A stretch of 64,000 bases of DNA, taken from positions 4,270,501 through 4,334,500 of the forward strand of contig NZ_CP133480.1 of the NCBI RefSeq assembly GCF_031195445.1, in the 5' to 3' direction. This document shows positions 23,970 to 42,264 of this stretch, piece by piece; the first letter of the stretch is position 1, and the number at the start of each line of letters is the position of its first letter. The translations under genes and the position numbers were made by a program. The DNA is from Acuticoccus sp. MNP-M23 (lineage in GTDB: Bacteria; Pseudomonadota; Alphaproteobacteria; Rhizobiales; Amorphaceae). The notes below the pieces were generated by a model, which was not told the DNA's origin, made no database searches, and worked only from the letters and a program-made list of their open reading frames with translations.

Positions 23970-24045
23970 GCGCCGGTAGCTCAGCTGGTAGAGCATTCGA
24001 CTTTTAATCGAACGGTCCGGGGTTCGAGCCCCCGCCGGCGTACCA
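23970..24045 (+). tRNA. tRNA-Lys (anticodon UUU)
   Basis: A 76-nt cloverleaf with acceptor stem GCGCCGG / CCGGCGT (first pair G-U), D-arm GCTCAGCTGGTAGAGC, anticodon stem TTCGA / TCGAA with loop CTTTTAA (anticodon TTT at 24003-24005), T-arm CGGGG-TTCGAGC-CCCCG, and an encoded CCA end. Its 3' 48 bases plus one following base form attL of the integrated element; the gene stays intact because the element brings an identical 3' end. Confidence 0.97.
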
Positions 24046-24046
24046 A
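23998..24046 (+). repeat. attL: 49-bp repeat within tRNA-Lys
   Basis: Identical over 49 bases to 42216-42264, starting in the anticodon stem (CGACTTTTAATCG) and ending one base beyond CCA. Flanking bases differ on both sides, so the core is exactly delimited. Integration into tRNA 3' ends is the classic habit of tyrosine-integrase elements. Confidence 0.95.
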
Positions 24047-24309
24047 CCGTTTCAAAGCGTTAATCCCCTTCGCGTATCTAAGACGATATAAAAAGACGGG
24101 CTCTAAGCCGGGCAACGGGCGCTGGGCAAGGTAATAAGCAACCGTAAGGCAGAACCGAACTGTCGCAACCGGCTCCTGCGCCAGGTTCCGGCCGAGGCAT
24201 AAGCAGCAAAGTGATGTGCGCCCAATTTGGCCTAATCGGTGCAAATACCGTGACGTTGCCCCTTGGAATGTCCTCGGTCTGAACTGGACTCCGTCAGAAG
24301 GAGACGGAG

Positions 24310-24576
24310 ATGAAGAAGAGCCGCTTCAGCGAAGAGCAGATCATCGCGGTCCTGAAGGAGCATGCCGCGGGGATCGGTGTGTCGGAGCTGTGCCGCAAGC
24401 ACGGGATCAGCGACGCGACGTTCTACACGTGGCGCAAGCGCTACGGCGGAATGGAAGTGTCTGAAGCCAGGCGGCTGAAGGCGCTGGAAGATGAGAACGG
24501 CCGCCTGAAGAAGCTTCTCGCCGAACAGATGCTCGATGTGGCGACGCTGCGGGACGCTCTGGGAAAAAACTTCTGA
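24310..24576 (+). CDS. IS3-family transposase OrfA
   Basis: An 88-residue helix-turn-helix protein ([36 protein letters not shown]) followed by a leucine-zipper segment ([12 protein letters not shown]) for multimerisation; binds the IS ends and regulates transposition. Ends in a slippery heptamer A-AAA-AAC at 24564-24570, correctly phased for a -1 frameshift into the orfB frame, giving the OrfAB transposase. Confidence 0.95.
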
Positions 24577-24599
24577 CGCCCAGCGCACGGAGAGGCTTC

Positions 24600-25421
24600 G
24601 TGAGTTGGGCGATTGAAAAGAAGGGGTATTCCCAGCGGCGCGCCTGTGCCCTGATCGGGATGCATCCAAGGACTTACCGCTACCGGTCGCAGCGGCCGGA
24701 CGATGCGACGGTGCGCCAACGCCTGAAAACGCTGGCGAACGAACGGCGCCGGTTCGGCTATCGGCGGCTGCATATCCTTTTGCGGCGCGAGGGTATCGAG
24801 GTGAACCACAAGAAGCTGTTCCGCCTATACCGCGAGGAGAGGCTGAGTGTACGACGGCGCGGCGGCCGAAAACGTGCCATCGGAACGCGGGCGCCAATGA
24901 CCTTGCCGCGAGGACCAAACCAGCGCTGGAGCCTCGACTTTGTCTCCGACCAGCTCAGCGACGGGCGCCGCTTCCGTGTGCTGGTGGTGCTCGACGACTT
25001 CACCCGCCAGTGCCTGACGCTCGTTGTCGACACATCACTGTCGGGGGCTCGCGTGGCACGGGAACTCGACCGCCTGATCGTCAGTCGCGGCAAGCCGCTC
25101 ACGATCGTCAGCGACAACGGCACCGAGCTGACCTCCCATGCCATCCTCGAATGGCAGGAGGACCGCCGCGTCAATTGGCACTACATCGCGCCCGGCAAGC
25201 CGATGCAGAACGGCTTCGTAGAGAGCCTGAACGGTCGCTTCCGCGATGAGTGCCTCAACGAGCATCTCTTCCGCAGCCTTCCGGGCGCTCGCCGCATCAT
25301 TGAGGAATGGCGCACCGACTACAACCACGACAGGCCGCACACCAGCCTGGGCGGCCTCACCCCGAACGAGTTTGCAACCCGGTCCCGATGGGACCACAAC
25401 ACGAACAGAGTCCAGCTATGA
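24600..25421 (+). CDS. IS3-family transposase OrfB (DDE integrase domain)
   Basis: A 273-residue catalytic part with the retroviral-integrase-like rve domain. The DDE residues are visible in [16 protein letters not shown] and [16 protein letters not shown]; an HTH_21 region ([18 protein letters not shown]) precedes it. The GTG at 24600 is a nominal start; the active enzyme is probably the OrfAB fusion, because the -1 frame is open from the slippery site at 24564-24570 into this frame. Confidence 0.94.
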
Positions 25422-25661
25422 GCGGGGACACTTCTGGGGCAACGTCAACCGTTAGCCATGTGGGGCCGTGAGTTACCGGCACGCGCTAGAGTCGTAGGGC
25501 GATTCATTTGCGAGGCTTAACGAGCCGCAAGTCCTTGATGATTCGCTCCGCCTCGTTTAAATTATTGTGGTGGGCGGTCATGCGCCGGAATTAGCCAGAG
25601 CACCCGAACAGGCTGCAGGCGGTTATCCGCAATCATGGCCCGGGGGGCCGCTCACAGACCT

Positions 25662-26447
25662 TCATTTAAAGTGCTGGAGGACCGCGTGCTGCTGATCGGT
25701 CAAAGCCGCGCGTTCCTCGCTCGGAAGCAACTTGAGCCCATAGCTCATATAATTACCGCTACGGTGGTATAGCCGCGGCCGTAGAGCGCGGATATACGTG
25801 CCTTCGACGTTTCCATACATGTCCGGTTCGAATGCCTCAGCGACAGCCCTAGCGCCGCAGTCAGCGAGCTGAAGGGATGCTAGCCGCGAGGCCTCTGTAG
25901 CAGTGACGCTATCGATATCGATAACCGGCCAATGTATGGTGGTATCCATATTATCTCTTAAATTAAAAAGGTACGATTGAAAGTCTTTGTAGTCCATCCC
26001 ACCGCGACGGGCGAACGTGATTTGCACGCGACCGTCGCCCTCACGAACCCGGCCGCGAAAGTCTCGGCATAGCCACGAAATCCGTTCGATCAAATACCTT
26101 GTTAGATACCAATATAACTGGTTCTTCCTTGTGAACGGAGACGCTTCAGACGTGTCCTTCTTGCCCAGTACAGCCGAAAAGCGAAGCTCTTTTCTAGCAA
26201 TCGCCGCTGCAACCACCTTTTTCTGCGAGTGCGACAACTTATGAAAGTGAAGCTCTCTAGATGTCCGCCCCGCTAACCGCAAAGCTTCGTCGCGCCACCC
26301 AACAGCATCGAGCGAACGGCTTGCTCGGATGACGCACGCGGAAATTACAAGCCAGCGAGAGGCACCGCCCCGCTGACCCGGTGTCCGAAAGTCCGACAGG
26401 CCATCGTCCCCCGACTCATCAATGTAGGCGAGATAAGAGTGGGACAC
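25662..26447 (-). CDS. DUF3800-domain protein
   Basis: A 261-residue protein starting with the DUF3800 hallmark YIDESGDDG (residues 8-16) and carrying the later LQLADCGARAVAEAF segment, both typical of this RNase-H-like family of unknown biochemistry found in many mobile elements and defence neighbourhoods. Conserved acidic residues suggest a nuclease-like active site, which is inference. It diverges from the HEPN-like gene, with a 247-base gap. Confidence 0.8.
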   Translation of the reverse strand: MSHSYLAYIDESGDDGLSDFRTPGQRGGASRWLVISACVIRASRSLDAVGWRDEALRLAGRTSRELHFHKLSHSQKKVVAAAIARKELRFSAVLGKKDTSEASPFTRKNQLYWYLTRYLIERISWLCRDFRGRVREGDGRVQITFARRGGMDYKDFQSYLFNLRDNMDTTIHWPVIDIDSVTATEASRLASLQLADCGARAVAEAFEPDMYGNVEGTYIRALRPRLYHRSGNYMSYGLKLLPSEERAALTDQQHAVLQHFK

Positions 26448-26626
26448 CGAATATGCCTTGAAACATGGGGTAGGAATAAGTCCGAAATCTATAATCGACG
26501 AAAGCAGACCAGGAAGCGGGCCAATGAATTAACAGCTGTGACGATTTTCATGGACCCAACTTGTAGGAACGCTCGCCTTCCTCGCGACGATTGTTTGGGT
26601 TGGCATGCGCATTAAACGCACAACGC

Positions 26627-26648
26627 AGCGCATGGTCCATGCGCTTTT
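26627..26648 (+). terminator. Terminator-like palindrome before the HEPN-like gene
   Basis: Perfect 9-bp arms AGCGCATGG / CCATGCGCT around a single base, followed by TTT. No plus-strand gene ends just upstream, so it may be a leader hairpin or operator for the gene that starts at 26695 instead of a true terminator. Confidence 0.4.
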
Positions 26649-26694
26649 CGTTTTCGTGCTTTTGCCCCCGTCACTTTAAACCTCGGAAGATTGC

Positions 26695-27270
26695 ATGTCG
26701 AACGGATCACCGCAACCACAAAACCCAACTTGGTGGGATCATCATGAGCTGACTTTCTGGCTTTGGGCTGCTCTAAACAACGCTGACCGCTATTTTTCAT
26801 CAAGCAATGCATTCCAAGCGGCAATCGCTGATATGTTTAATAAAGACATATCTACGCGAAGCGACGTCCGCACCAACCTCGATGACTTGAAAAAGCAAAC
26901 GACCCTCGCCGGATACAATTTCGTCACCGCCATGGGCGTGTTGATAAGAGTGCTAGAGCGATCACAGTATCTGTTCCCATCGATCCAGCCTCCATACAGC
27001 CGCGCCAATCACCTTCAAAAAGAGGGAAAGCAAATCCGAAATATGATCGAGCACGCTTACGGGAAGGATGGCTATCTTTCCGGCGGAGGCCACCATAAAG
27101 ACAAGTTTGTCCGTCAGGAGGCTGGTATCACAGCCGACGCTACAAGCACCATCATAAAAGATGGTGTCCATTGGCTCGGAAACCGACTTTGTGTCGAGAA
27201 AGTGGTTGATGAGATCCGAGCAATACATGAGGAGGCTGACAAAATAGAAGCGCCGAAGGGCGACGACTAG
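26695..27270 (+). CDS. HEPN-like protein, possible RNase toxin or defence factor
   Basis: A 191-residue mainly helical protein. It contains RNMIEH at residues 115-120, which fits the R[N/D]xxxH catalytic motif of HEPN ribonucleases, placed between predicted helices as in that superfamily. No close named family is recognised. Its GC content is lower than the host's. It is one of only two element-borne cargo genes on the plus strand, which points to independent expression in the integrated state, as for typical satellite or prophage cargo. Confidence 0.5.
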   Translation: MSNGSPQPQNPTWWDHHELTFWLWAALNNADRYFSSSNAFQAAIADMFNKDISTRSDVRTNLDDLKKQTTLAGYNFVTAMGVLIRVLERSQYLFPSIQPPYSRANHLQKEGKQIRNMIEHAYGKDGYLSGGGHHKDKFVRQEAGITADATSTIIKDGVHWLGNRLCVEKVVDEIRAIHEEADKIEAPKGDD

Positions 27271-27310
27271 CGATCCATCTCTCTGGGGTTCCAAGATCCG
27301 TGACTCTACG

Positions 27311-29575: not shown

Positions 29576-30685
29576 CTACTCGCCCGGGTTCCGGTACAGG
29601 CCGCGCCAGCCCATCGCCTTCACGCCCGCGTCGATGCGCACCTTGAACTCGACACCATCCGAGGCCCAACCCGGCTGCTGCTCGATGGTCGGCGTGTCCT
29701 GGCCGCCGAGATAGGCCACCTCGATGGTCTCAGTCGAATTCGGATCGGCGGCAAGGTACCACGCTGACGCGGAGGCGAGGTCAAGGCGCGGATCGGAGAT
29801 GACCTCGGCCATCCCGCGGACGGTGTTGGGCTTCCCGAGCGTGGCAGCCGAGTGATCAAACTCGCTGCCGACGACAACGCTGGCAGTGCCCTGGAGCCCA
29901 ACAGGCACGAGCAGGAAGCGCGGGCGCGTGCCGAAGATGCCGGCCTCTTCAGCGCTGGTCTGCACCGCCATTGACGAGCGCGCCGCATCGAGCGCCGGCA
30001 CGGACGGCACGCCCCCGCTGCCTGCGAGGTTGCCGTGGTCGGCGTGGAACAGCGGAATGCCGTCGGACAAGGCCGGGTTGCCCGTCAGGATCGCGTAGAC
30101 GAGATTGCCGATGGTCCGGCGGGCCGCGCGCCCCATCCGGTTCGGGATGCGGGTAAACACCCCGATGTCGTCGTTGATGATTGCGTGCCGGGTGATGGCG
30201 AACATCCGCCCGTATGTGGCCAGCTGAATCGTCTCGCTGCGACCGCTGAGCTGCGCGTACTTGTATTCAGCCCCCTCGGGCACCTCGCTGAGGCTGGGGA
30301 AGGAGCTGAGGTCGATCCGTGACGCCGGCCGGAAGTCCTGCAGTTCGCCCCTCGCGGTCCACAGGTGGAACGTCTCCTCAACCTCGTTGTACCCCTTCAG
30401 CATCGACTTGTTGGCGACGTTGGCGAGGATGTTGACGAAGTCGGACGTGGACTGCATTCCGCCGGCGGCCATGGAGAGCCCAAGCGCATCGGAGGCGGGG
30501 TTTGTCGACGCCTTCCCGGTCGCCAGCATCACGGCCTGCTGTGCGAGCGCCATGAGGGACATTCCGGTGTACTCGTTTTGTTCACCGCTCGGCATTCCGG
30601 AGCGGGCGAGCAGTGCGCGGGTTGCGCCCTCGCGGAAGCGGTCTCGCTGGTCGCCGGTGATGCGTGCACGTTGATGGTAGGTCAT
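29576..30685 (-). CDS. Phage major capsid protein (HK97-fold, Mu/fusion type)
   Basis: About 369 residues matching the capsid half of prohead-protease/major-capsid fusion proteins: STSDFVNILANVANKSML, then EVPEGAEYKYAQL, YGRMFAITRHAIINDDIGVF and PLFHADHGNLAG. No protease domain is attached or encoded nearby. ATG 30685 has AGGA seven bases upstream; an in-frame ATG at 30742 overlaps the previous stop (TGATG) and is a coupled alternative. It is the last gene of the structural operon, an unusual position after a tape-measure gene. Confidence 0.85.
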   Translation of the reverse strand: MTYHQRARITGDQRDRFREGATRALLARSGMPSGEQNEYTGMSLMALAQQAVMLATGKASTNPASDALGLSMAAGGMQSTSDFVNILANVANKSMLKGYNEVEETFHLWTARGELQDFRPASRIDLSSFPSLSEVPEGAEYKYAQLSGRSETIQLATYGRMFAITRHAIINDDIGVFTRIPNRMGRAARRTIGNLVYAILTGNPALSDGIPLFHADHGNLAGSGGVPSVPALDAARSSMAVQTSAEEAGIFGTRPRFLLVPVGLQGTASVVVGSEFDHSAATLGKPNTVRGMAEVISDPRLDLASASAWYLAADPNSTETIEVAYLGGQDTPTIEQQPGWASDGVEFKVRIDAGVKAMGWRGLYRNPGE

Positions 30686-30741
30686 GATTGGATCCTGTTC
30701 TGTTGGGTGGTGAGGTCGGTGGAGCGCGGGGCGGTCAGCCA

Positions 30742-31560
30742 TCAGGCCGCCCCGTCGCTGAACGAGTTGCGGATCGCACGGGAGACACCGCGCTCCAGGT
30801 GCCGCTCCATGTCGCTCGGGCTCATGTTCGGCGCACCGTGGATGTGGACGGGGCCGACTGAGATTGTCGTCGTGGACACGGCGCCCGCCGCGCCACTCTG
30901 GCTCGATGCGTTGTTGGATGGAGCGCCAGAGCCCAACGCCGCAGCCGAGTGAGGCGAGCGCGCCCGGGGCTGTAGCATCGACGCTGTCTTGACGGCGTTG
31001 AAGACGTGGCCGGGCACCTTCGGCATCAGCAGCTCGGGACCACGCTCGCCGACCAGCAGCGGAAGGCCGGCGCGGTAGGGTCCGCCCTTCGCGCGGGCCT
31101 GGACGGGGATCGAGGCAGCGGCCGAGTTGGCGTTGGCGTTGGCGGCGGCCCGTTGAGCTGTGCCCAAGGCACGGACGGCCCGTGTCGCAGAGTTGGCGGC
31201 GGTCTCGGCCGCGGTGAGGGAGCTGCTGTCAACAATCGGCTTGACCGTGATCTCCAGAGACGACCGGAGCTGATTTGCGATCCGCTCGGCCTCGGCCGTA
31301 ACCTGTCCACCGCCGGCCCGGAGCGCGGCCTGGTACTCTCCGATGCCCTTCTGGGCGGCCGGGCCTAGGGTAGCAAGTTCGGTCTGCAGCTCGCGGCTGG
31401 GTTCGCGAAGGAGAGCGTTCCCCGCGCGACCCGGGTTGGCCGCTCGGATGGCTTCAATCTTTTCCACGAGCGCCAGCGCGCGCTCCAGGTTCGGGAGATC
31501 CGCGGGTGGAACCACAGGCTCCGTCGGCCGGCCCGCGAGCGCCCCCAAAAAAGCGTTCAT
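30742..31560 (-). CDS. C-terminal tape-measure-like protein
   Basis: A 272-residue product that starts with ATGA overlapping the stop of the tape-measure gene. It carries the sequence normally at the C-terminus of long tape-measure proteins: GGPYRAGLPLLVGERGPELLMP and a histidine/glycine beta segment (VGPVHIHGAP) ending ISRAIRNSF-like. Thus the tape measure is split into two coupled reading frames. Either a real two-gene arrangement or a frameshift in an originally single gene; the tidy overlap favours the first. Confidence 0.7.
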   Translation of the reverse strand: MNAFLGALAGRPTEPVVPPADLPNLERALALVEKIEAIRAANPGRAGNALLREPSRELQTELATLGPAAQKGIGEYQAALRAGGGQVTAEAERIANQLRSSLEITVKPIVDSSSLTAAETAANSATRAVRALGTAQRAAANANANSAAASIPVQARAKGGPYRAGLPLLVGERGPELLMPKVPGHVFNAVKTASMLQPRARSPHSAAALGSGAPSNNASSQSGAAGAVSTTTISVGPVHIHGAPNMSPSDMERHLERGVSRAIRNSFSDGAA

Positions 31561-33536
31561 ATTGTTGGAGTTGGCGGCGGGGGGAGCGGCATTGACGGGA
31601 CACGGTCCGGTAGCGGCGGGCCGTAGGTCTCCCCTTCCGAGCCGAACAGGTCCTTTACCCAAACGGGAGCCTCGGGCCAGGAGATGTTCGCGATGGAGGA
31701 GGTCAGAGAAGAAATCGCGGCCTTAATCTTGTTGACGATGTTGAGTGCGCCTTGGAAGGCCCCGCGGACGGTATCGGCCGCGGACTGAAGCTTTCCGCCG
31801 ATGGTTTCGCCAATTGCTTCACCCAGGGCGCGGAACTCTTCATCGGTCCCGGACAGCGCCTCGCTGACATCTCCGATCCAGCCGGAGACCTTGTTCACCG
31901 CGTTCCCGAGGCCGTCGATGACCGCGGTGGCGGCGGGGAATGAGGTCTTGATCCCCTCTGCGATCCCGCGGAACATCTCCTTGATCCCGCTCCAATTGGT
32001 GTAGACCCACGTGCCGGCGACGGCCAGCGCGACGATAGCGGCGCCGATCCCGGAGGCGATGAGAGCGAGGCGCACGGCAACAATCGCGCCCCGGAGAACT
32101 CGGAAGGCGGCGGACACTCCCGCGATCTTCGCGGCCGAGGGGAGACCACCGATGGCGGCGGCTGCAGCGAAACCCATCATGGCCCGCTTCGCGCCCCGGG
32201 CGGCTGAGCCCAAGGGGAGAAGCGCGAAGGAAAGCGCGCGAGAGGCGGCCGTCATCGAAGCCATCCCGCCGATGGCCGCCGTCAGACCCGCCCCGCGCAT
32301 CCAGAGGAAGGACCACCGGGCAGCGACGGAGGCAACCTTCAGCGCGATGAGGGCGGAGGTCAGCGTGACGATGGTCGCGGTCAGCTCGGGGTTCCGTTCA
32401 ATCCAGAGGGAGATCGCGTTCAGGACCGGGAGAAGGTTCTGGAGGAGCGCGGTCAGGCCGGGAAGAAGCGTGTTGCCGAGGCTGATGCCGACATCTTCCA
32501 TGGCGCTCCGGAAGCGCTTCACGGCGCCTTCCCAGCCCTTCATCCGGGCAGCGGCGATCTCTTCGGCCGACACGTCCCCGATCTCGGACTTCATCTCCCG
32601 GATACCCTCGGCCCCGAGCTTGGACATGGCCAGCGCGGTCCGCATCGCGTCGATGCCGAAGATGGTCTTGGTGGCGTCAATCTTTGCTTCTTCGCTCAGG
32701 TCCCCGAGACCGTCCTGAAGTGACTGCGCGATCTCCTCCATGGACTTCATCTCACCGGAGGCGTTGAAGAATGATAGTCCATACTGCTCCATCATCTCGG
32801 CCGCCTCTTTCGACTCAGGGTTCAGTCGACTGAGAAACGTCTTGTAGGAGGTGCCCGCGTCGGAGCCGGACTTGAAGGCCGAAGAGGTCGCGGCGATGGT
32901 GGCTACAAAGTCCTCCAGTTCAACGCCCACCTGCCCAGCGACACCGCCGGCCTGACCGACGGCCAGCACGAAGTCGTTGAACGAGAATTTGGAGCGGATC
33001 GTTGCACCAACAAGCTGGTCGGCCACGCCGGGCATTTCGCCCGCCGTCTTGTTGAAGTTGGCCATGACGTCGGTCGCGAGGTCCGCGGCGTCAGAGAGGG
33101 TTGAACCCGTGGCGGCAGCGAGGTTGAGCGAGGCGGCCGTGGCACCCCCCGTGATCTGCGCGAAGTTGAGGCCGTTCTTGGCCAGCATTTCCATCGCGTT
33201 CGCTGCTTCCGTCGCGCTGAACTGCGTGTCACGGCCGAGCTGGCGCCCCATCTTTGACATGACCGCCATGTCGGAGGTCGTGCTGGAAAGGTTCGCCTGA
33301 AGACGGTTCATGGAGGCTTCAAAGGAGCCGGCGACGGAGATGGGGGCCTTGAGACCCCTGTAGAGGGCATAGCCGACGCCGGCCGCCTCAAACATGGAGG
33401 AGCGCATGCCCGCCATCGCGGCCTGGTTCCGGGCCATCTGGCCGCGAAGGCGGTCAAGGTTGCCCGAGACGGTACGCGCCCGGGCGGAGACCTTGTCAAC
33501 GAGAGTGAGGACCAGCTTGCTGTTTAAGGTTGCCAT
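31557..33536 (-). CDS. Phage tail tape-measure protein (TP901 type), N-terminal part
   Basis: A 659-residue protein starting ATG 33536. Residues about 70-330 match the TP901-family core (FEASMNRLQANLSS, FSATEAANAMEMLAKNGL, and FGIDAMRTALAMSK); about 370-530 has several hydrophobic helices typical of tape measures. In tailed phages this protein sets tail length and helps DNA entry. It ends in a Pro-rich stretch and continues functionally in the coupled downstream gene. No other tail gene is visible in the element. Confidence 0.88.
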   Translation of the reverse strand: MATLNSKLVLTLVDKVSARARTVSGNLDRLRGQMARNQAAMAGMRSSMFEAAGVGYALYRGLKAPISVAGSFEASMNRLQANLSSTTSDMAVMSKMGRQLGRDTQFSATEAANAMEMLAKNGLNFAQITGGATAASLNLAAATGSTLSDAADLATDVMANFNKTAGEMPGVADQLVGATIRSKFSFNDFVLAVGQAGGVAGQVGVELEDFVATIAATSSAFKSGSDAGTSYKTFLSRLNPESKEAAEMMEQYGLSFFNASGEMKSMEEIAQSLQDGLGDLSEEAKIDATKTIFGIDAMRTALAMSKLGAEGIREMKSEIGDVSAEEIAAARMKGWEGAVKRFRSAMEDVGISLGNTLLPGLTALLQNLLPVLNAISLWIERNPELTATIVTLTSALIALKVASVAARWSFLWMRGAGLTAAIGGMASMTAASRALSFALLPLGSAARGAKRAMMGFAAAAAIGGLPSAAKIAGVSAAFRVLRGAIVAVRLALIASGIGAAIVALAVAGTWVYTNWSGIKEMFRGIAEGIKTSFPAATAVIDGLGNAVNKVSGWIGDVSEALSGTDEEFRALGEAIGETIGGKLQSAADTVRGAFQGALNIVNKIKAAISSLTSSIANISWPEAPVWVKDLFGSEGETYGPPLPDRVPSMPLPPPPTPTI

Positions 33537-33538
33537 GC

Positions 33539-33895
33539 TCAGCGCCCCCCGTCGCTTGAGGGTCCGCCGCTCCGCTTGGATGGCGTGCGAGGCAGATGTC
33601 TGAGTGGGTGTTCCAGCCCAGCCGGGAGCACGAGGTGGAAGCAGTGTTCGCCGCTGGAGCGGAGCGTCGTGCGGATGCCGTAACCCTTCACGGTGTGGAC
33701 ATCCCAGTTCAGGGCTGCGCGCGCAGTCGATTGCGCCCAAGGGCGACGGCCGCTCGCGGTCGCGGCGATCAGCTCGGCGAGCGTCGCGCCCTTCGGCCGG
33801 GCGAGGATGTCAATCAGCGTGGCCCGCTTCGTCCCGGCGCGGCACGGCTTGACTTGTTCTAGGGGCTTAGGACGGAGGTTGCAGCCTGCACTCAT
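33539..33895 (-). CDS. DUF3489-like small protein
   Basis: A 118-residue protein with KRATLIDILARPKGATLAEL and WDVHTVKGYGIRTTL, matching the winged-helix-like DUF3489 pattern (stretches normally reading GATL..L...TGW..HTVRG). Proposed DNA-binding fold; function unknown, often in phage or plasmid context. Its ATG overlaps the previous stop (ATGA) with AAGGA upstream, and the tape-measure start follows its stop by two bases. Confidence 0.6.
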   Translation of the reverse strand: MSAGCNLRPKPLEQVKPCRAGTKRATLIDILARPKGATLAELIAATASGRRPWAQSTARAALNWDVHTVKGYGIRTTLRSSGEHCFHLVLPAGLEHPLRHLPRTPSKRSGGPSSDGGR

Positions 33896-33999
33896 TTTGC
33901 GTCGTCCTTCTGCTTTTGGGCATTCAGGAGCAGTTCGATCTCGCGAGCGGAGAGAACGAAGAGCCGGCCGAAAACAAAGTCGAGGTTATTGGAGGGCAT
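33892..33999 (-). CDS. 35-residue coupled small protein
   Basis: A short gene below usual length cut-offs: product begins MPSNNLDFVFGRLFVLSA and ends in a Lys/Asp-rich tail. Evidence that it is real: AAGGAG eight bases before ATG, a 14-base overlap with the upstream stop and an ATGA overlap with the downstream start, so it fills the only gap between two coupled genes. One amphipathic helix predicted. Possibly a small head or tail assembly partner; function unknown. Confidence 0.6.
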   Translation of the reverse strand: MPSNNLDFVFGRLFVLSAREIELLLNAQKQKDDAK

Positions 34000-34519
34000 C
34001 GTTCAGCTCCTTCTCAAGGCGCGACCAGCCCGCCTCGCCCAAGGTATCCGCGCCGGGGCAGTTGAGCAGGTCGTCTCGGATGGCGGTGCACAGCGTATGG
34101 CGGGCGGCGGCGAGGGCCGACGTGGCGCGGGCCGACGTGAAGAGGTCGATGCCGGCTGGTAGTGGAAGGCGCGCATCTGTGAAGGCTGCGACCAATGCCC
34201 GGCCGACCTCGCGACTGACGATGTCGTGCTCACTTCCGCTGAAGCAATCGGGTAGCCGACGGACGGCGCGGCGGACCTGCATACAATCGGCCTCGAAAGC
34301 ATCACATACCGCGGCGAGCGAAACGATGGTGGTGCCCTCCTGGGCGGCGTCGCGCAGGTGGGCGCAGTACCTCTGAACGGAGCTGGCCGTGTCGAACATT
34401 CCATCGGCGCGGCGCTCCAGAATGCCGGAAGCGGCGAGCGCTGAGATGCCGGCGCGGGTGAGCCCAAGCAGGTCGGCGAGCGCCAGCGCGGAACTCATGT
34501 GTGGCGGTTCCATTTCCAT
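33986..34519 (-). CDS. Nu1/TerS-like DNA-binding protein (second copy)
   Basis: A 177-residue protein with an N-terminal MerR-like helix-turn-helix (LADLLGLTRAGISALAASGILER, then FDTASSVQRYCAHLRD), the pattern of Nu1-type small terminases, and a helical C-terminal half. Related in plan to the gene upstream, whose stop it overlaps (TGATG). As no large terminase is present, it could redirect a helper phage's packaging machinery or simply act as a regulator. Confidence 0.5.
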   Translation of the reverse strand: MEMEPPHMSSALALADLLGLTRAGISALAASGILERRADGMFDTASSVQRYCAHLRDAAQEGTTIVSLAAVCDAFEADCMQVRRAVRRLPDCFSGSEHDIVSREVGRALVAAFTDARLPLPAGIDLFTSARATSALAAARHTLCTAIRDDLLNCPGADTLGEAGWSRLEKELNDALQ

Positions 34520-34995
34520 CAGTCGCCCCCCCGCCCGCCGTCGGCCGCCGAAGCAAGGCCCTGCCGGATCTCGCGGTCCAACTCGTTGATGTCGAAAGGC
34601 GACATGTTGGGGAGGCGGCTACGGACCCGCGCCGGGACATCGAGCATGGCTTTGCGGATCTGGACGAGCACCGTCTGGAAGGTCGCGATTGCGGTGTCGC
34701 AGTCGATGACATCCTGACGCTGTCGCGCGTTCTTCATCTCTTGGTGCTCGCGCTGGGAGCGGGCCAAGAGCGCGCGCTCGCGGCGGCAGTCGATGGCGTT
34801 CGGATCCGAGCTGGGAATATTATCGCGGAGACGCTGACAATATCGCCGGGTGTTCTCCTTGAGGTCGTACAGGCCACGGTCCTCTCGCTGTAAAACCCCC
34901 ATCTTGCAGAGGCGCTGAACCTGCCTCGCGGTGATGCCCAAGCAGTCGCCCAGAGCGGTGACGTTCACTTTATGTTCCTCGTGTGATGGCTGCAT
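34519..34995 (-). CDS. Phage terminase small subunit, Nu1 type
   Basis: A 158-residue protein: winged HTH LGDCLGITARQVQRLCKMGVLQREDRGLYDL split as a MerR-like motif (residues 15-45), then TRRYCQRLRD and a helical part with ALLARSQREHQEMKNARQRQDVID and MLDVPARVRSRLPNM, which match the Nu1/TerS order of segments (DNA binding, linker, large-subunit contact). Small terminases recognise the packaging site. A lone TerS without TerL is a hallmark of helper-dependent satellites. It heads the coupled structural operon. Confidence 0.65.
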   Translation of the reverse strand: MQPSHEEHKVNVTALGDCLGITARQVQRLCKMGVLQREDRGLYDLKENTRRYCQRLRDNIPSSDPNAIDCRRERALLARSQREHQEMKNARQRQDVIDCDTAIATFQTVLVQIRKAMLDVPARVRSRLPNMSPFDINELDREIRQGLASAADGGRGGD

Positions 34996-35146: not shown

Positions 35147-35779
35147 CTACGCCTCTCGCATCTCCTTCGCCGTAGCGGCGGCGTGCGTGCCCGGGGGCGA
35201 GAACTGGAAGTCAGTCCCGGACGGCTGCCACAGCCACTCGCCCGCCGCCACCGCAGGCAGCTCCAGGTCGCGCGATAGGCTGACCCCCTTCGCACTCCCG
35301 CGCGCGGTGAACTCCGGCGACGGAATTGGGGTGGCCCCCTCGGGAAGTTTCTGGTTGGCCGCGTGGATCAGCGCCTCAGCGTCATACAGCTGCCGCAGAA
35401 CACCGAGCAGCGCCCGACAGGCCGGCTCATACTCCGCCAGCGCGCGCTGCGCGTCCGCTACGCTCGCCTTCGCGGCCCTATAGGCGCGCTGCCGCTCGGC
35501 CGCCTCCTCGCGGGCCTCAGCCTCGGCGAGCAGGTCCTGCGCGCGTGCCCGGGCGGCCGTCACTCGTTCAATCCGGATCGCCTGAATGCTGATGTCCGCG
35601 TCGATCTTCTGGACCTGCGCGTCGGTCCCCGCGAGCAGCGCCTCTCCCCGGGCCGCGCGCAGCCGCGCCAGCTCGGCGTTCGCCTGCTCGATGCTCGCCT
35701 CATCGTCACCCAGAGCGACTTGAAGTTCATCCACCGACGGCGCACTCTTCTTTCTGGTGATCAGTTCAAGAAGTCTCAT
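35147..35779 (-). CDS. Coiled-coil protein of the element
   Basis: A 210-residue protein from ATG 35779 with GGAGGG nearby. Residues about 15-120 form a long Ala/Glu/Arg-rich coiled coil; the C-terminal 60 residues are Pro-rich with a short beta-like end (EWLWQPSGTDFQFSPPG). No family recognised. Lies between the primase origin region and the structural operon; a scaffolding-like role would fit its composition and position but is speculation. Confidence 0.6.
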   Translation of the reverse strand: MRLLELITRKKSAPSVDELQVALGDDEASIEQANAELARLRAARGEALLAGTDAQVQKIDADISIQAIRIERVTAARARAQDLLAEAEAREEAAERQRAYRAAKASVADAQRALAEYEPACRALLGVLRQLYDAEALIHAANQKLPEGATPIPSPEFTARGSAKGVSLSRDLELPAVAAGEWLWQPSGTDFQFSPPGTHAAATAKEMREA

Positions 35780-36388
35780 GGCTACCCTCCAGATCAATCC
35801 CTTAATACAACTTTAGGATTACGCTGGTTTGCTGCCGCCCGAAACCACTAATTCTTGTATCAAAAGGATTGGTTTGAACTTTGTATTGTTCATCTCTTTG
35901 GGCGATGCGCCGACAATGAAGCTGCACCATAGTCGATTGTTGCTGACCCCTCGCCCAGAGGTTAGCGCGCGGTCGCCAGCCAGCGATGAGACGAGATGGG
36001 TTGGAGCGGCAAGCAGCGCCTCCCCTCGCCCAGAAGAACACTCCAGAGAAATACGGAATGCTAACGGAATAGGAAACGGAAAACTCTAACCTGCTGATTT
36101 TATTAACTTTTTTATACTAAAAGAGAGATTTATTCCGTTATTCCGTTATTCCGTTTAGATTTTGGTAGAGAATGAGATGAACCCCTCGAAGGTGATTCTT
36201 CAGGAGCCGAAAAAATATCCTTAAGTAATTTTCTGCAGAGAGTAACGGAATAACGGAAAATCGGCCGGGTTTCCCCAGCCGATTCAATCACTTAACACAC
36301 TTTCCGTTTCTCTCTGCGTAACGGAATGACATCCGGCGAGAGCCGCGAATTCACTTTACGCTTCAATGCTTTACGTTAATTTTCCGTA
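35780..36388. other. Gene-free AT-rich region, probable replication origin
   Basis: No coding frame is supported. This 600-base stretch is far more AT-rich than the rest of the element and carries an array of 8-bp TAACGGAA repeats (listed separately) directly downstream of the prim-pol/helicase gene. An AT-rich block without repeats (about 36205-36235) could be the unwinding region. Origin function is inferred. Confidence 0.55.
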
Positions 36389-36389
36389 T
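36051..36389. repeat. Iteron-like array of TAACGGAA / TTCCGTTA
   Basis: Exact TAACGGAA or its complement occurs at 36062, 36133, 36141, 36243, 36251 and 36319. One-base variants occur at 36051, 36074, 36149, 36302 and 36382. Copies come in both orientations, and several abut exactly every 8 bases (36133/36141/36149 and 36243/36251). Such clusters near a replication gene are typical origin iterons. Confidence 0.75.
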
Positions 36390-38989
36390 TACCATGGTTC
36401 GTCGCTGCTCCCCCCTTGGGCAGGGGCTAACCCACCACCGATGCTCCACTCAACCTCGGCGCCGTCCTCCCAGTCAAACGGGATGCGGTTCGCCTCGCAC
36501 CACGCAGCCCGCGCCTCGGGCAGCCTCGGGAGCCAGCAGCCGCGAACCCACTCGGTGTGCACCTTCTCCTTCACCGCGGTCCGCCCGCCATTTGCCTTGA
36601 TCAGCGCACGCCCGAGCGAGCGGTTGTCCTCCCGCAGCTTGATCCTCTGCGTCCTTGCCCAACGCGCTAGGTCCTCGGTCGCGATGAACACGCTCCCATT
36701 GTCGCCGGTGAGCGTCGCCGCGCGCTCCCCGCTCAGCCACCCTTCGCGGATGACGGCCGGGGTTATGCCTCGCCACAGCAACTCGAAGACGGCCCGCTGC
36801 TCGCCCTGGAGGCCGGCGATCTTCTGGGCCATCAGGCCGGCGTTCTGCGGCACACCTCGGCGCGGATGCCAGTCGCCAAGGTCCATCTTGAGGAGGTCAT
36901 GGAGCATCGCCGCGTGGCCGCCCTCGTCCATCATCTGCCGCTTGAGGGCGGTGAAGTACACCTCGTCCTCCTTTCGGCCGCTGCCGACGTTGAACACCGC
37001 GAACCGGCGCTCATCGATCCCGGCCGGCACCGCCCAGTCCTCGTTCGCCGCGATTATGACGTGGAGGAAGTTGTCCTGCGCGGCGAGGTCCACGCCCTTG
37101 CGCTCGATGGCAAGCGTTGACTCGGTCAAGAGGCTCTTGAGCCTAGCTTCGGCCACACGGTCGCCGCTCCACACCGCCTCGTCGGCAAACAGCAGGCAGC
37201 ACTCGGCGAGGTGAGCGTTGAACCGGCCGGTGAGGTCACCCGCCTGGCAGTAGAAGGAGTGCGTGCCGAAAAGGTCCTTCATGGCCCACCCGAACATGCC
37301 CTTGCCGACGCCCTTCTCACCGACGAAGACGAGCGCCACCTCGGCCTGCTTGTCCGGGTTCTGCACCGCCCACGCCGCCCACCGCATGATGTAGCGGTCC
37401 GCTTCCCCATCGCCCGCGGCGAGGTTGTCGCGGATGTGGTCCCGCAGCATCGACCAGTCGCCAGCCCTCGGCTCGACACCAAAGCCCCGCCAGCGGTTGT
37501 AGTGCCCGTTGATCTCCTCCGGCCCGTTCGGCACAAACGTCAATCGACCATCGTACTCACGACGGTTCTTGTGGTCCAACCACCATTTCCCGAGTGGCTT
37601 CTTGATGTCGTCACCGTCCTTGTTCTGGCCGGTGACCACGAACCGGTTCTGGTAGCTTTTGACGATGTCTTCAAAGGTCTGAAGCTCAACATCCGGCCGG
37701 CCCTTCTCGTCAGTGCCAAAGGTCGCCACTACAGTCCCGCTTTTTCCGCCGCTCCGGCCGCCCCTCTTCAGCACCGCATGGCGCGCGTTCATCTCAAGCA
37801 ACTGTGGGCAATGGGCCGTCTCCCGCGCGCGCTCGATCTGCCGCGCGGCATAGGCCTGCGGCTTCGGCTGCGACAAGATGTGACCGCTGATCGCATAGTC
37901 CGGGTCAAGGATGACGGCCGCCATCTCGTCGTCCGAACAATCGGCCCGGACCATCTCGCAGAGCACACCAAAAACAGCCTCTGACCGGGAGCCGTAGCGG
38001 CCGGGCTCATCCGGATCGAACCCCTGGACGATGAGCTGCTTGACGCGAGCTGACACGCCTGCGGGGAGGTCATCGAGGCTGTTCAGCGTCGGAAGGTTGC
38101 CGCTGATCCTGACCTTGGTCGCTCCCCCGGTCGGATCGTCGTTGGACTGGACCCGAGGCGCCGCGGTGAACTGCTTCAGGCTGTAGACGCGGTCCCAGTC
38201 CTCATCGACCACGCGCGCCAGGGCCGGCTCGCGCCCCTTCGACCTCTTGCGCTCGTTGGGCACGTTGATGGTGCCGGGCAGCCGCATTATGCGGTCGATG
38301 TTGTGGCAGTGGTCGCCGCCTAGCAGGACCTCCAGCTGGATGTTGTACGCCTCCAGCTCCTCGGCCCGGCTCACGTCGCCGTCCGTGCGGTGCTCCTTGT
38401 CGAGCATCCAGAAGCCCTGATGCCCCCCTCCCGAAAAAATAATAACCGTGGGAGCGGGGTCAAACTCTTTTAGAACTTGCAGCGTCCGTTCCTGTTCGGC
38501 GGCGAAGTCCTCGCCGGCCCGCGGGTCCAAATCGACGTGCAAAGCGACCATGCTCTTCACGTCCTCCTTACTCGCCTTCTTCGTGATCGGGTTGATGGTC
38601 GGGTTCACGGTGAAGTAGAGGTTCTGCTTTCCCTGGCGCTCATCGACCCACTCGGTGAGCGCGTCCTCCTCCCCGCGCTGGAAGGTGCGGGTGTTCGTCT
38701 TGCCGGCGTCCACGATGATGGACGTGAGGACCCAGGGACCTTCCGGAGCCCAGGCCTGAAGGAAGCGGACCGCCTCGGGGGTGTTCCCCTTTATTGCCCC
38801 GCTCGCCGCATCGTCCGACAAGAATTCGGTATCGACTTCCGGCCGCGGTTCCTCTATATTTTTAGAGTAACCAGCTCCTCGGGCGGTACTGGCTACACTG
38901 TGGGTTTTGGCATAACCTGCGCTCCTCTGAACCCCGGCGGTTTCACCGCCGGGGTTTTCTTTTACAGTCTTCCCATTTTTGCTCTTCAT
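36389..38989 (-). CDS. Primase-polymerase / helicase replication protein (DUF5906 type)
   Basis: An 866-residue replication protein. The N-terminal half has archaeo-eukaryotic-primase motifs: ALHVDLD (151-155 region), SGGGHQGFW (186-194) and NIDRIMRLPG (230-239). The C-terminal half is a phage DUF5906/SF3-like helicase with Walker A GEKGVGKG (557-564), Walker B LLFADE (599-604) and VIIAANEDW (644-652). The architecture recalls the NrS-1 phage primase-polymerase. Start ATG 38989 with AAAGGA upstream. It abuts the repeat array, suggesting that it initiates replication there after excision. Confidence 0.82.
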   Translation of the reverse strand: MKSKNGKTVKENPGGETAGVQRSAGYAKTHSVASTARGAGYSKNIEEPRPEVDTEFLSDDAASGAIKGNTPEAVRFLQAWAPEGPWVLTSIIVDAGKTNTRTFQRGEEDALTEWVDERQGKQNLYFTVNPTINPITKKASKEDVKSMVALHVDLDPRAGEDFAAEQERTLQVLKEFDPAPTVIIFSGGGHQGFWMLDKEHRTDGDVSRAEELEAYNIQLEVLLGGDHCHNIDRIMRLPGTINVPNERKRSKGREPALARVVDEDWDRVYSLKQFTAAPRVQSNDDPTGGATKVRISGNLPTLNSLDDLPAGVSARVKQLIVQGFDPDEPGRYGSRSEAVFGVLCEMVRADCSDDEMAAVILDPDYAISGHILSQPKPQAYAARQIERARETAHCPQLLEMNARHAVLKRGGRSGGKSGTVVATFGTDEKGRPDVELQTFEDIVKSYQNRFVVTGQNKDGDDIKKPLGKWWLDHKNRREYDGRLTFVPNGPEEINGHYNRWRGFGVEPRAGDWSMLRDHIRDNLAAGDGEADRYIMRWAAWAVQNPDKQAEVALVFVGEKGVGKGMFGWAMKDLFGTHSFYCQAGDLTGRFNAHLAECCLLFADEAVWSGDRVAEARLKSLLTESTLAIERKGVDLAAQDNFLHVIIAANEDWAVPAGIDERRFAVFNVGSGRKEDEVYFTALKRQMMDEGGHAAMLHDLLKMDLGDWHPRRGVPQNAGLMAQKIAGLQGEQRAVFELLWRGITPAVIREGWLSGERAATLTGDNGSVFIATEDLARWARTQRIKLREDNRSLGRALIKANGGRTAVKEKVHTEWVRGCWLPRLPEARAAWCEANRIPFDWEDGAEVEWSIGGGLAPAQGGSSDEPW

Positions 38990-39454: not shown

Positions 39455-39555
39455 GAATACAACTCCATTGTTCGAATGCCGATAGAACTATAGTTGTACT
39501 GTAGTTTGTCGTATAGTTCACTTTGCCGATGCTACAAGAATTAGCCTTATACAAT

Positions 39556-40296
39556 CTACTTCGATTGCCATGCCTCAAGCGCACTTCGGAGATACACGAC
39601 AGTGTTCCCCACGCGGGCGAAGGGAGGCCCTCCGCTGCCGCGCCGCCAGCTTTCGAGCCGCGACGTGCGGATGCCGAGGTGGTCCGCCGCCTCGCGGGTG
39701 ATCATGAGCTGGTCACCCCGCTGCGCCGCCTGATCCCTCGCCTCTTGGAGCGCCTCTTCGACTTTCGCCCTGGCGCGATGCCCGCTCTCGACGCACCTGG
39801 CCCGCTTGACCGCCGGCACCTCCCGGCGCGCCCGGTTCGCGGCCTCGGCCCGCTTACCAGCCGCGCTGCGGCGCTCTCGGGTCGCCTCGGCTCTGCCGGT
39901 TTCATCATCGGCAGCCGCGCGCCGCCGGCTGGCACCATCGTCTTCTGCGCGGAGTGCCGCACGGCCGGCAGCCGCAAGCGACGGTGTCGCGCTCTGGCGC
40001 TGGGACCCTCCCCCGGCAACCCGCGCTGCCAGCGCCTCGACATGGTTGATCACGTCGCGCGGTTCACGTGCGAGATCCGATCCGACCAGCTCCGTCCATT
40101 CCGCAAATGCCTTCCACAGGGCATCGGCCCGCGCGGCCTCTCGGCGTGGCAGCGCCATCTGGGCCTCGGTGATGGTCGTGATCTTCCGGCCGAGGAGCAC
40201 TACTGCACGCAGCTGAATAGCCGCCCGAAATGTCGGCGCGCTGTGCGTGAGGAAGGTCGCAGCGTGACCGGAGCTTATCCATTCATGGAAGTTCAC
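39556..40296 (-). CDS. Two-part protein with C-terminal AlpA/excisionase-like HTH
   Basis: About 246 residues. GTG 40296 is chosen: GGAGG lies eight bases upstream and the start overlaps the preceding stop (GTGA). The C-terminal 50 residues form a helix-turn-helix_17 domain (LMITREAADHLGIRTSRLESWRRG, then VVYLRSALEAW). Residues about 100-190 are a charged Ala/Arg/Glu linker, probably coiled or disordered; the N-terminal 90 residues are not recognised. Having the HTH at the end of a long protein is unusual for an AlpA regulator. Confidence 0.6.
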   Translation of the reverse strand: MNFHEWISSGHAATFLTHSAPTFRAAIQLRAVVLLGRKITTITEAQMALPRREAARADALWKAFAEWTELVGSDLAREPRDVINHVEALAARVAGGGSQRQSATPSLAAAGRAALRAEDDGASRRRAAADDETGRAEATRERRSAAGKRAEAANRARREVPAVKRARCVESGHRARAKVEEALQEARDQAAQRGDQLMITREAADHLGIRTSRLESWRRGSGGPPFARVGNTVVYLRSALEAWQSK

Positions 40297-40409
40297 CTGC
40301 ACGCCCTCCGCATCCGCGCATGAGGAAGCTCGCCAGAGGTCTGTTCCATGAACGCGTCAAGATCCGCGCGGAGCCCGTCCGGGAAACTGATGACGTATGT
40401 GAGGTTCAT
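40293..40409 (-). CDS. 38-residue coupled small protein
   Basis: Product begins MNLTYVISFPDGLRADLDAF and ends in a basic tail. Its ATG overlaps the upstream stop (ATGA) and its own stop overlaps the next start (GTGA), so it is embedded between two coupled genes. The sequence hints at a small ribbon-helix or helical DNA-binding fragment but is too short for assignment. Confidence 0.5.
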   Translation of the reverse strand: MNLTYVISFPDGLRADLDAFMEQTSGELPHARMRRACR

Positions 40410-40687
40410 TGCACCGCCCCCTGGTTCATCCAGGCGACCACGCCCGCTCGGGGGTATCGGATCGTGCGTGCGGTTGGGCGGACGAACGGCGGGCCTTCGC
40501 CCCGCTCCCTCATCGCCTCCAGCGAACGCGCGGTCTTGCCAATGATCCGCGCGACGTCAGCGGTGGTCAGGTACTCGGCAGGCGCCTGACCAAGCAACTC
40601 GGCACGCAGCTCGTCACGAAGCGTGCCGCGCATCTTCTCAACGGCGCGCTCGACGGCGCGCTCAATCTCTTCATGTGTGGTGGTCAC
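40406..40687 (-). CDS. AlpA-like helix-turn-helix regulator
   Basis: A 93-residue protein from GTG 40687. N-terminal half is a charged helix (EEIERAVERAVEKMRGTL), C-terminal half is a MerR/AlpA-type winged HTH (LTTADVARIIGKTARSLEAMRERG, then IRYPRAGVVAWM). In satellites and prophages such proteins activate the excision or replication operon. First gene of a coupled trio after the integrase. Confidence 0.7.
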   Translation of the reverse strand: MTTTHEEIERAVERAVEKMRGTLRDELRAELLGQAPAEYLTTADVARIIGKTARSLEAMRERGEGPPFVRPTARTIRYPRAGVVAWMNQGAVQ

Positions 40688-40854
40688 GGACTACCCCCGT
40701 CAGCTGAAGCCGGGTGCTTCCTCCTCCCGGCTCACAGTGACGGACGCGTGCAGCCTCGGCCGCTCTCGGGTTGCGTCCCCCCACAAGGGCATGCGGGGTC
40801 CCCCGGTCAATCGGCGCGTCCCGCTAAGGCCGGCCGGGGTTGTGTAGTCCCCTT

Positions 40855-42078
40855 CTACCTACGCGTGCGCGCGGTGGAAGGCAAGGGCGCACCCTTATCT
40901 CGCAGCAGCTGTGGGTCTCCGCCGAGGCGGCGCACATGGGTGCTGATCCGCTGCTGTTCGGCCCGGAGATGCGTCATCGCACGCAATGTGAGGTAGCCGT
41001 CATGTACGTCGCCGAATGCATGGTTCATGAGGGCCATCGAGTCAGTCTTGGGAACGCCTGCGGTGGCGGCGAACGTCCGGAAGCTCTGCCGCAGGTCGTT
41101 GCCCCAGTGGCTCAGCGTGTTGCGGTCCTCCCGCCATTCCTCGATGTGGCCGCTCTTGCTCTGCGCCGGGAAGATCCAGGGCGAGCCCGGGAACAGCACC
41201 GCGCCCGCCCGGCGAGCGAGGATCAGGCACCGCGATGCCTCGCGGCTAAGCGGAACCTTGAATGCCCGCCGCTCGCCCCCTTTTGGGCGGGGGATAAAGA
41301 GAGTGCGGCGCGCCAAGTCGATGTGCTCCCAACGGGCCTCGGCGAGCGCACCCGGCCGACTGCCTGTGAGCAGTGTTAGCGCGTGGAACGCGCGGCGGAG
41401 AGGATTGTCTAGGCGGTCGAGCTGCGCAAACCAAGCCGGGAGCGCTGCCCCGTCCAGCGCGGTCGAGCGGCGCTGCGGTGCGTCGAGCCGGACGGCCATC
41501 GCCGGGTTGTAGGCTGGTAGCTCGGGGTCGAGCCGCTGACGGAACGCGAGGTTATAGGCGCGACGGAGGGTGACGACGGCGGCCCGTGCCGCGGACTGAC
41601 CGCGGGCGGCCGCAACCTCGGCGTGCCGCTGCCGGACCTCGGCGGGGTTCTCCGACAGCCGCGCGAGCGGGACATCACGCCAGTCCGCAAGGATCCCCGC
41701 TCCCCACCGGTAGTAGGTCACCGTGTTGGTCGACCGCCGCCCAGCAGCAACGTCTGCGTCGAGGCCGGCAAACAGTTCGTCCAGCGCGCCGCCCAGGGTC
41801 AGCCGCCGCGTCTTGGGCGCACTCGCCTCGGCCAGCTCCACCCGCGCTGCCCGCGCTGCCCGCCGGGCGTCGGCGACAGTGATCTGAGGATGCCGGCCGA
41901 GCGTCTTTTTCCGCGTCACGCGCCTGCCCAAGCGGTCGATGGTGTCCACCTGCACGGTGAAGGTCTTGGTCCGCTTTCCCACGACCAGGAAGAAGCCCGG
42001 CTCCTCTTCGTGGCGGACGATAACCTGCCCCTGCTCGGCGAACGGCAGCGCCTCGATGGCGTCCTTCGTAAACTTCAC
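40855..42078 (-). CDS. Tyrosine-type site-specific integrase
   Basis: A 407-residue phage/island integrase: N-terminal DUF4102-like arm-binding part (to ~residue 90), core-binding domain, then the catalytic domain with Arg in TGSRPG (R241), NDLRQSFRT (R330), NHAFGD (H353) and tyrosine in DGYLTLR (Y362). The usual His of the HxLR motif is Asn here (N327), a tolerated variant in some integrases. Located 138 bases from attR, so it catalyses integration into the tRNA-Lys end. Ends near the AlpA-like gene, all reading leftward. Confidence 0.92.
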   Translation of the reverse strand: MKFTKDAIEALPFAEQGQVIVRHEEEPGFFLVVGKRTKTFTVQVDTIDRLGRRVTRKKTLGRHPQITVADARRAARAARVELAEASAPKTRRLTLGGALDELFAGLDADVAAGRRSTNTVTYYRWGAGILADWRDVPLARLSENPAEVRQRHAEVAAARGQSAARAAVVTLRRAYNLAFRQRLDPELPAYNPAMAVRLDAPQRRSTALDGAALPAWFAQLDRLDNPLRRAFHALTLLTGSRPGALAEARWEHIDLARRTLFIPRPKGGERRAFKVPLSREASRCLILARRAGAVLFPGSPWIFPAQSKSGHIEEWREDRNTLSHWGNDLRQSFRTFAATAGVPKTDSMALMNHAFGDVHDGYLTLRAMTHLRAEQQRISTHVRRLGGDPQLLRDKGAPLPSTARTRR

Positions 42079-42215
42079 GCCGCCCCTCCTAAGACGGATT
42101 AAAGACGGTCAGCCGTCTTAGAGGGTCGGCCACCCGCTAGCCGAAGTTAGCGCGAAAGCGGCAGAAAATCTAGCGTTTCGGGGGTGGAATTCGGTGGGCG
42201 AGTACCAGAACAGAA

Positions 42216-42264
42216 CGACTTTTAATCGAACGGTCCGGGGTTCGAGCCCCCGCCGGCGTACCAA
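42216..42264 (+). repeat. attR: 49-bp copy of the tRNA-Lys 3' end
   Basis: Identical to 23998-24046; carries the anticodon-stem through CCA part of tRNA-Lys without the 5' half, so it is not a functional tRNA. It marks the right end of the integrated element. Confidence 0.95.

Follow-up and report, generated by a model that had tools for sequence, protein, structure and literature searches.

A probable phage satellite at a tRNA-Lys gene of Acuticoccus sp. MNP-M23 with its own capsid and tape-measure genes

The DNA considered here, 64,000 nucleotides of Acuticoccus sp. MNP-M23 (contig NZ_CP133480.1, positions 4,270,501 to 4,334,500; hereafter the window, whose own numbering is used throughout), contains an 18.2-kb element inserted at a tRNA-Lys gene. 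This element is very probably a phage satellite. As judged from its sequence, the slightly favoured explanation is a tRNA-integrating satellite of the integrase–AlpA–primase type to which an operon for taking over the particle assembly of a helper phage has been added. The operon encodes two small terminase (TerS)-like proteins, a tape measure and a major capsid protein. Together, the relatives of the backbone and the gene order of the operon point to a satellite which has assembled this gene set from helper genes.

The backbone of the element and its relatives

An initial annotation of the window described an 18-kb element with perfect 49-bp repeats at tRNA-Lys. The two direct repeats framing the element, attL and attR (Table 1), are indeed 100% identical, and the left one forms the 3′ end of tRNA-Lys(TTT); by estimate, a chance origin of a 49-bp exact match within 20 kb is ruled out. 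An Rfam scan of the window returned no RNA match besides the tRNA. The start of the integrase gene adjoins attR, and the gene is read inward. Family scans agree with the annotation on this integrase, the AlpA-like regulators, the primase-helicase, the two TerS-like proteins, the tape measure and the capsid protein. All of these are encoded on the minus strand; the open reading frames (ORFs) at 26695–27270 and 29133–29396 run rightward. Downstream of the primase lies a candidate replication origin, where GC content falls to 31% and where all six sites of the motif WTTCCGTTA in the window are found (0.25 expected). The hallmarks of PICI and P4-like satellites are an att-bounded island with an integrase at one end, an AlpA regulator, a primase by a candidate origin, an incomplete structural gene set, and induction and packaging by a helper phage. 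The hallmarks legible in sequence were all found in the element, which in this broad sense is probably PICI/P4-like.

Relatives of the backbone were gathered as 103 primase loci, consisting of the best 80 of 89 relatives on genome contigs and 23 on viral contigs (alignment search). An integrase match lies just upstream of the primase in 34 of them. Seven of the 34 (L192, L199, L205, L206, L225, L268 and L366) have exact repeats of 43–56 bp at a tRNA gene and sizes of 9.8–12.2 kb. The other 27, several of which are cut short, include ten with short repeats only (14–24 bp) and 17 without. A backbone common to seven bounded tRNA elements and 27 further integrase–primase loci bears out the earlier proposal of a satellite at tRNA-Lys. 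For the backbone, the case which that proposal had set against itself, that of relatives which are all full-length prophages at this site, is absent, and no relative of the element turned up at the same tRNA-Lys. The nearest integrase found (52%) belongs to L192, a 12.1-kb element at tRNA-Thr, followed by those of L238 (49%) and L216 (42%). Among 397 genomes of the host order the primase query matched 50, own included; as single queries in viral contigs, the integrase, primase and TerS1 found no relative.

The seven bounded relatives resemble the element in their integrase and primase, in their orientation, in their tRNA site with its repeats and, though not in every case, in an AlpA match. 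They differ in being smaller and in carrying TerS or TerL-like genes (TerL being the large terminase), and none matches the capsid protein or the tape measure. Across the 103 primase loci there were no matches to TerS1, TerS2, tape measure or capsid (E 0.001). To take in the capsid gene here, a locus must span 9.5 kb or more, counted from the start of the primase, which 63 loci do, the other 40 being too short to tell fully. From 25 of the 34 integrase–primase loci, 101 hand-picked ORFs of the 188 near the primases were scanned; they include nine with matches to TerL families and eight with matches to phrog_309, a TerS family. In the matches listed, which cover 25 of 37 families, any capsid family was matched by the window protein only (the first row), while each of the remaining 12 families was matched by at most one scanned ORF. 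Eight large ORFs of related loci, scanned by name and including five outside the first selection, matched no capsid or tail family, and those of 1172 and 1183 aa (L366 and L205) are restriction–modification enzymes. Type-ISP restriction–modification cargo is found in the bounded relatives at L205:16364–19915 and L366:13128–16646, with a methylase part at L199:8650–10755. Some related satellites (L225:13355–14740, L232:13833–15236 and L172:6017–7378) encode a TerL-like protein of roughly 460 aa, with capsid genes unrecognised.

An operon of terminase, tape-measure and capsid genes

Between 34995 and 29576 the genes follow one another closely, in the order TerS1, TerS2, a possible 35-aa ORF, a DUF3489 gene, the tape measure in two frames and the capsid gene. 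Stop and start codons overlap as TGATG both between TerS1 and TerS2 and between the second tape-measure part and the capsid gene, and as ATGA between the two tape-measure parts; the tape measure begins two bases past the DUF3489 stop. The tape measure is thus followed by the capsid gene. In contrast, the capsid gene comes before the tape measure in all five distinct phage loci with both (L040, L053, L055, L126 and L306; L068 and L310 are L040 again). Since the order here is the reverse of that in these phage loci, deletion alone cannot produce it; the phage gene order that a deleted prophage would conserve around its deletions was not found. The order and the start/stop overlaps, as read from the sequence, argue for an assembled operon over a simple prophage remnant. 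Locus L126, which matches the primase, the capsid and the tape measure, was considered as a sibling of the element and rejected, being prophage-like with TerL and portal.

Of the two small-terminase-like proteins annotated initially, TerS1 aligns with its family along almost the whole protein and TerS2 over residues 4–63 only. The TerS1 query matched 10 of 385 genomes of the class, own included, the weakest match being in G043, outside the fetched loci. The DUF3489 gene was considered as a tail chaperone and rejected, its Pfam match belonging to another family.

The tape measure is divided into 659 codons, counted from an ATG in the first frame, and 272 codons in a second, open frame; three-base periodicity shifts from the one to the other near 31600. 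In a tree with 11 relatives, its nearest are L271–L273. The tape-measure frames of relatives (n = 106) comprise 73 of 642–979 aa, 23 of more than 1000 aa and 10 broken short. A shorter tail is not indicated, because 659 + 272 codons fall inside this range. In the host order, 35 of the 397 genomes matched the tape measure, own included (best other 42%), while in viral contigs a single query found 7 loci and an alignment 278 relatives, of which the best 80 were taken.

The capsid protein covers only positions 299–667 of the 668 in a protease/capsid fusion family. In the NCBI fusion model it covers 292–652 of 652, and it scores under the whole-protein cut-off because half of the protein is missing. 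In an alignment of 12 relatives, the window protein is without the protease and without most of the linker preceding the shell domain, and it retains a stretch beginning DRFREGATRALL. The AlphaFold model of the protein (38 sequences) has a mean pLDDT of 81.6 and a pTM of 0.76. Foldseek with this model returned HK97-type shells, encapsulins and phage capsids at a probability of 1.00, with TM-scores of 0.33–0.47 by query length among the 50 rows listed. A capsid match was found in 6 of 10 genomes of the host family, own included, that of G008 being weak (28% over 127 residues), and there is no second capsid copy in the element's own genome. In viral contigs the capsid query gave at least 587 relatives among at least 600 stretches, of which the best 80 were taken.

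Among 85 complete capsid frames of relatives, some from places fetched twice, 82 are at least 500 aa long, and in the remaining 3 a ClpP domain lies directly upstream. L104, L112 and L124 were considered as stand-alone capsid genes and rejected, since each has the ClpP domain directly upstream. With the ClpP domain of G001 as probe, 70 of 86 other loci have this domain upstream of the capsid. In the 16 loci without a match, which partly overlap the 85, the capsid is probably fused to a protease part that is diverged or of another type, because their frames are 603–808 aa long with 240–438 aa upstream of the capsid match.

As gene content, the earlier statement that capsid plus tape measure make up the whole morphogenesis set is right, the capsid being only half of a fusion and the tape measure lying in two frames. 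The reported lack of TerL, portal and prohead protease was likewise upheld by tblastn of the window with probes from a related prophage, in which no match to the ClpP domain (best E 0.67), TerL (1.6) or portal (3.7) was credible. No family of tail assembly chaperones or baseplate hubs appeared in the element scans, in which a diverged chaperone could be missed. By family scans and tblastn probes the structural gene set of the element is incomplete, short ORFs having been scanned in part.

The relatives of TerS1 (nine loci fetched, from eight genomes) lie in prophages arranged TerS–TerL–portal–capsid. TerS is followed by TerL in 8 of the 9, a portal is present in 9 of 9 and the same capsid family in 7 of 9; the TerS of L398, detected in the 385-genome search, lies below the threshold of the later locus comparison. 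The order in L053 is exceptional (capsid, TerS, tape measure). Because the relatives of TerS1 and of the capsid are linked in prophages, both genes point to one lambda-type packaging lineage, and prophages with lambda-type packaging genes are their probable source. The label ‘lambda-type head’, the recruitment of TerL by TerS and the function of the tape measure are general knowledge. A genome of the same genus, G001, has a prophage with TerS, TerL, portal and a capsid fusion, in which the capsid is 64% identical; by DNA, the capsid gene matches at 72% over 885 bp. Ccm-bearing cos satellites carry the cos site of their helper; with regard to such a site, a blastn comparison of the element with this prophage region gave the capsid gene and, at E 0.05, three short matches (21–28 bases). 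The G001 prophage (L048, L049; G001:C23:636000–675800) has a lambda-type TerS–TerL–portal–fusion head and tail genes which appear contractile by eye.

Table 1. Features of the element and its insertion site, in window coordinates
Feature	Position	Strand	Basis
TerS1, Nu1-like small terminase	34519..34995	-	phrog_57 E 8e-29, PF07471 E 1e-7
TerS2, N-terminal TerS DNA-binding part, divergent remainder	33986..34519	-	phrog_57, residues 4-63
Possible 35-aa ORF between TerS2 and DUF3489 gene, overlapping both	33892..33999	-	read by eye
DUF3489 small protein, directly upstream of tape measure	33539..33895	-	PF11994, phrog_7790
Tape measure, first 659 aa (TP901/PhageMin_Tail)	31557..33536	-	TIGR01760 E 2e-60, PF10145, phrog_28
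Tape measure C-terminal part, second frame	30742..31560	-	family match, open frame; ATGA overlap with first part
Major capsid protein without protease half	29576..30742	-	phrog_133/4523 E ~1e-114; PF25209; NF045540/NF045541 partial; AlphaFold and Foldseek
Tyrosine integrase, beside attR	40855..42078	-	phrog_1 E 3e-27, PF13356; PF00589 just under cut-off
AlpA-like HTH regulator 1	40406..40687	-	HTH_17 E 3e-8, phrog_66
AlpA-like HTH regulator 2	39556..40302	-	phrog_66 E 5e-5; HTH_17 just under Pfam cut-off
Primase-helicase	36389..38989	-	phrog_1829 E 2e-58, DUF5906
AT-rich stretch with six WTTCCGTTA iterons, candidate replication origin	36062..36327	.	motif count, GC
tRNA-Lys(TTT), integration site	23970..24045	+	ARAGORN; Rfam RF00005
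attL, 49-bp repeat	23998..24046	.	repeat scan
attR, 49-bp repeat	42216..42264	.	repeat scan
IS3-family insertion within element, 4-bp target duplication	~24251..25447	+	ends read by eye; transposase family match
DUF3800 protein, low-GC3 cargo	25662..26447	-	Pfam PF12686; GC3 0.59
Unassigned low-GC3 cargo ORF, 191 aa	26695..27270	+	ORF list, GC3
Unassigned ORF, 237 aa	28120..28833	-	family scans, PADLOC: no match
Unassigned ORF, 216 aa, coiled-coil-like by eye	35147..35797	-	nothing above curated cut-offs

The left end of the element is occupied by an IS3 copy and low-GC3 cargo ORFs. This cargo (25662–27270, the DUF3800 protein and an unassigned ORF) lies between the IS3 copy and the remainder of the element, and PADLOC matched none of it. 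Elsewhere in the window, a low-GC ORF of 325 aa (18799–19776) lies in an AT-rich dip at 19–20 kb and by its looks was recently acquired; its neighbour is presumably a CTP synthase gene, as read by eye.

Comparison with known satellites

Each half of the capsid and tape-measure pair has a published precedent, namely the Ccm protein of SaPIbov5 (PMC8569155) and the tape measure of the PLE of Vibrio cholerae (PMC12987554). The initial annotation's view of such a satellite as unprecedented therefore holds less well. Ccm is a capsid homologue which takes up the pentamer positions and gives rise to small shells (PMC8569155). Like the window protein, it is a satellite homologue of a helper capsid with an HK97-type fold, and no satellite protease is identified in the available text of that paper. 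SaPIbov5 differs in its host group, which is unrelated to that of the window element. Moreover, the capsid here is of the protease-fusion type and 64% identical to a prophage copy, whereas Ccm and its helper counterpart share 24% (PMC8569155), and the window element also has a tape measure and two TerS genes, unlike SaPIbov5.

The PLE encodes its own tape measure, and chimeric tails have been shown; further satellites with putative tmp genes, cf-PICIs included, appear in the legend of Extended Data Fig. 10 of the same paper (PMC12987554). PLE and the window element are alike in carrying tape-measure coding sequence with most tail genes absent. The PLE also has a tail assembly chaperone and a baseplate hub protein (PMC12987554), neither of which was recognised in the window element, and the tape measure here is divided into two frames, unlike that of PLE. 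In a limited search of the open-licence literature, no published satellite was found in which a capsid gene and a tape measure, each standing alone, share an operon.

By definition, cf-PICIs carry fuller capsid modules. They share with the element a capsid protein of their own and a TerS (PMC10690885). In these satellites capsid, protease, portal, connectors and both terminase subunits are encoded (PMC10690885), whereas the window element has capsid and TerS only. AH14b of Pseudomonas, of 16.8 kb, has an integrase, an AlpA-like regulator, a primase and a stray homologue of a tail-assembly gene (PMC4936722), and so resembles the window element in size class and in each of these genes. According to the available text, no terminase or capsid gene was identified in AH14b, and its particles held only helper proteins (PMC4936722).

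A satellite-like element of E. coli (L405:5159–15036 on NZ_CP027454.1, and L406) is inserted within the gene for the large terminase in a prophage. It has an integrase, a primase, an SSB and a lone protease/capsid fusion of the same family, and the hosting prophage has its own fusion (same capsid family), a portal and tail genes. It resembles the window element in its integrase, primase and lone capsid gene of this fusion family, and differs in that the protease half is kept, no tape measure lies inside and the insertion is in a prophage and not at a tRNA gene. A repeat scan of L405/L406 found no clear att pair; a 112-nt direct repeat (71% alike) flanks the capsid gene. Among 5426 complete E. 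coli genomes, 96 hold at least 80% of a 3.7-kb probe and 1788 some match.

Proposed mechanism and competing explanations

In the favoured explanation, AlpA would turn on excision once a helper is active, and the primase would copy the element from the iterons of the candidate origin. TerS1 would then bring the GpA-type TerL of the helper to satellite DNA, while TerS2, which has the DNA-binding part only, may compete with the helper TerS. The protease-less capsid protein would co-assemble with the protease/capsid fusion of the helper and change the shell, as Ccm does; the chances of such a role appear even. Replacement of the helper's tape measure by that of the satellite, giving chimeric tails like those of PLE, is suggested more tentatively. 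TerL, portal, protease, tail tube, baseplate and lysis functions would be provided by the helper. It is possible that the element sets both head and tail size. A fuller version, in which a single operon would remodel the helper particle at either end through a protease-less capsid matured by the helper, two coupled tape-measure polypeptides and a DNA-binding-only TerS paralogue biasing packaging, is rather unlikely.

Several observations weigh against an operon for particle takeover. The search for the same gene order, proposed in the initial annotation, found no second copy of the full configuration in order-genome, class-genome or viral-contig searches, and with a single copy there is no case for recurrence under selection. 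There is no GpA-type TerL in the element's own genome (one family searched), and hence no obvious helper there. In nine relatives the flanks of the element matched only apart, and no empty site was found. Ccm keeps a cleaved N-terminal delta domain, described as important by its authors (PMC8569155), while of the corresponding pre-shell segment of the window capsid most is missing and a short stretch remains. The tape-measure parts lie in one frame in 18 of 18 comparable loci (L012/L041, L016/L053 and L023/L052 being the same places fetched twice). Their separation here may reflect decay, an assembly error or real fission; of these, fission fits the exact ATGA overlap, which does not prove it.

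The divided tape measure also favours the first alternative, in which the satellite integrates and replicates, and its capsid and tape-measure genes are prophage debris, recent, decaying and functionless passengers. The presence of these genes in no related locus and of an IS3 copy within the element speaks for the same alternative, as does AH14b, whose tail-assembly homologue was undetected in particles according to the available text (PMC4936722). The capsid branch is somewhat long: at 0.325 it falls among the values of the ten phage branches used for comparison, but it exceeds that of its sister (0.204), so that some relaxation of selection is possible. Nevertheless, no internal stop occurs in the frames of the capsid, both TerS, primase or integrase. 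Over 360 codons shared with the G001 prophage copy, dN is 0.275 and dS, which is near saturation, about 1.0, giving a dN/dS of about 0.27. Three-base periodicity is kept across the tape-measure frame and then the second frame, and the start/stop overlaps, together with a gene order beyond the reach of deletions alone from the usual phage order, also argue against debris. On balance, passenger genes seem unlikely, although they are the alternative that survives best.

It is improbable that the element acts by interference only, with the protease-less capsid and the tape measure as dominant-negative decoys which spoil helper heads and tails and so protect the host. Satellites and prophages are known to block the assembly of tails or virions (PMC11364771; PMC10884400), and a capsid protein without its fused protease would suit it. 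On the other hand, the tandem TerS genes and the replication genes suggest packaging, and a PADLOC scan for defence families over ten element ORFs, the capsid and tape measure not among them, gave one weak match (E 0.005). This match, to the 216-aa protein, was set aside as weak. Finally, a full temperate phage once present at tRNA-Lys, since deprived of TerL, portal, protease and most tail genes, is very improbable: TerS1 and the capsid come from one phage lineage in which their genes are normally linked, and on the viral contig L126 a primase match occurs together with TerL, portal, capsid fusion and tape measure in a single order resembling that of a prophage, but the bounded backbone relatives reach only 9.8–12.2 kb and the tape measure precedes the capsid here.

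If the explanation of a satellite with an added takeover operon is correct, one small element would join the rebuilding of the head, as by Ccm in SaPIbov5, with that of the tail, as in PLE, outside Staphylococcus and Vibrio. Its protease-less capsid would offer a natural way to ask if shell size is set by the half that contains the fused protease and linker. The element would also suggest that a minimal satellite family may grow by gathering single helper genes and not whole modules.

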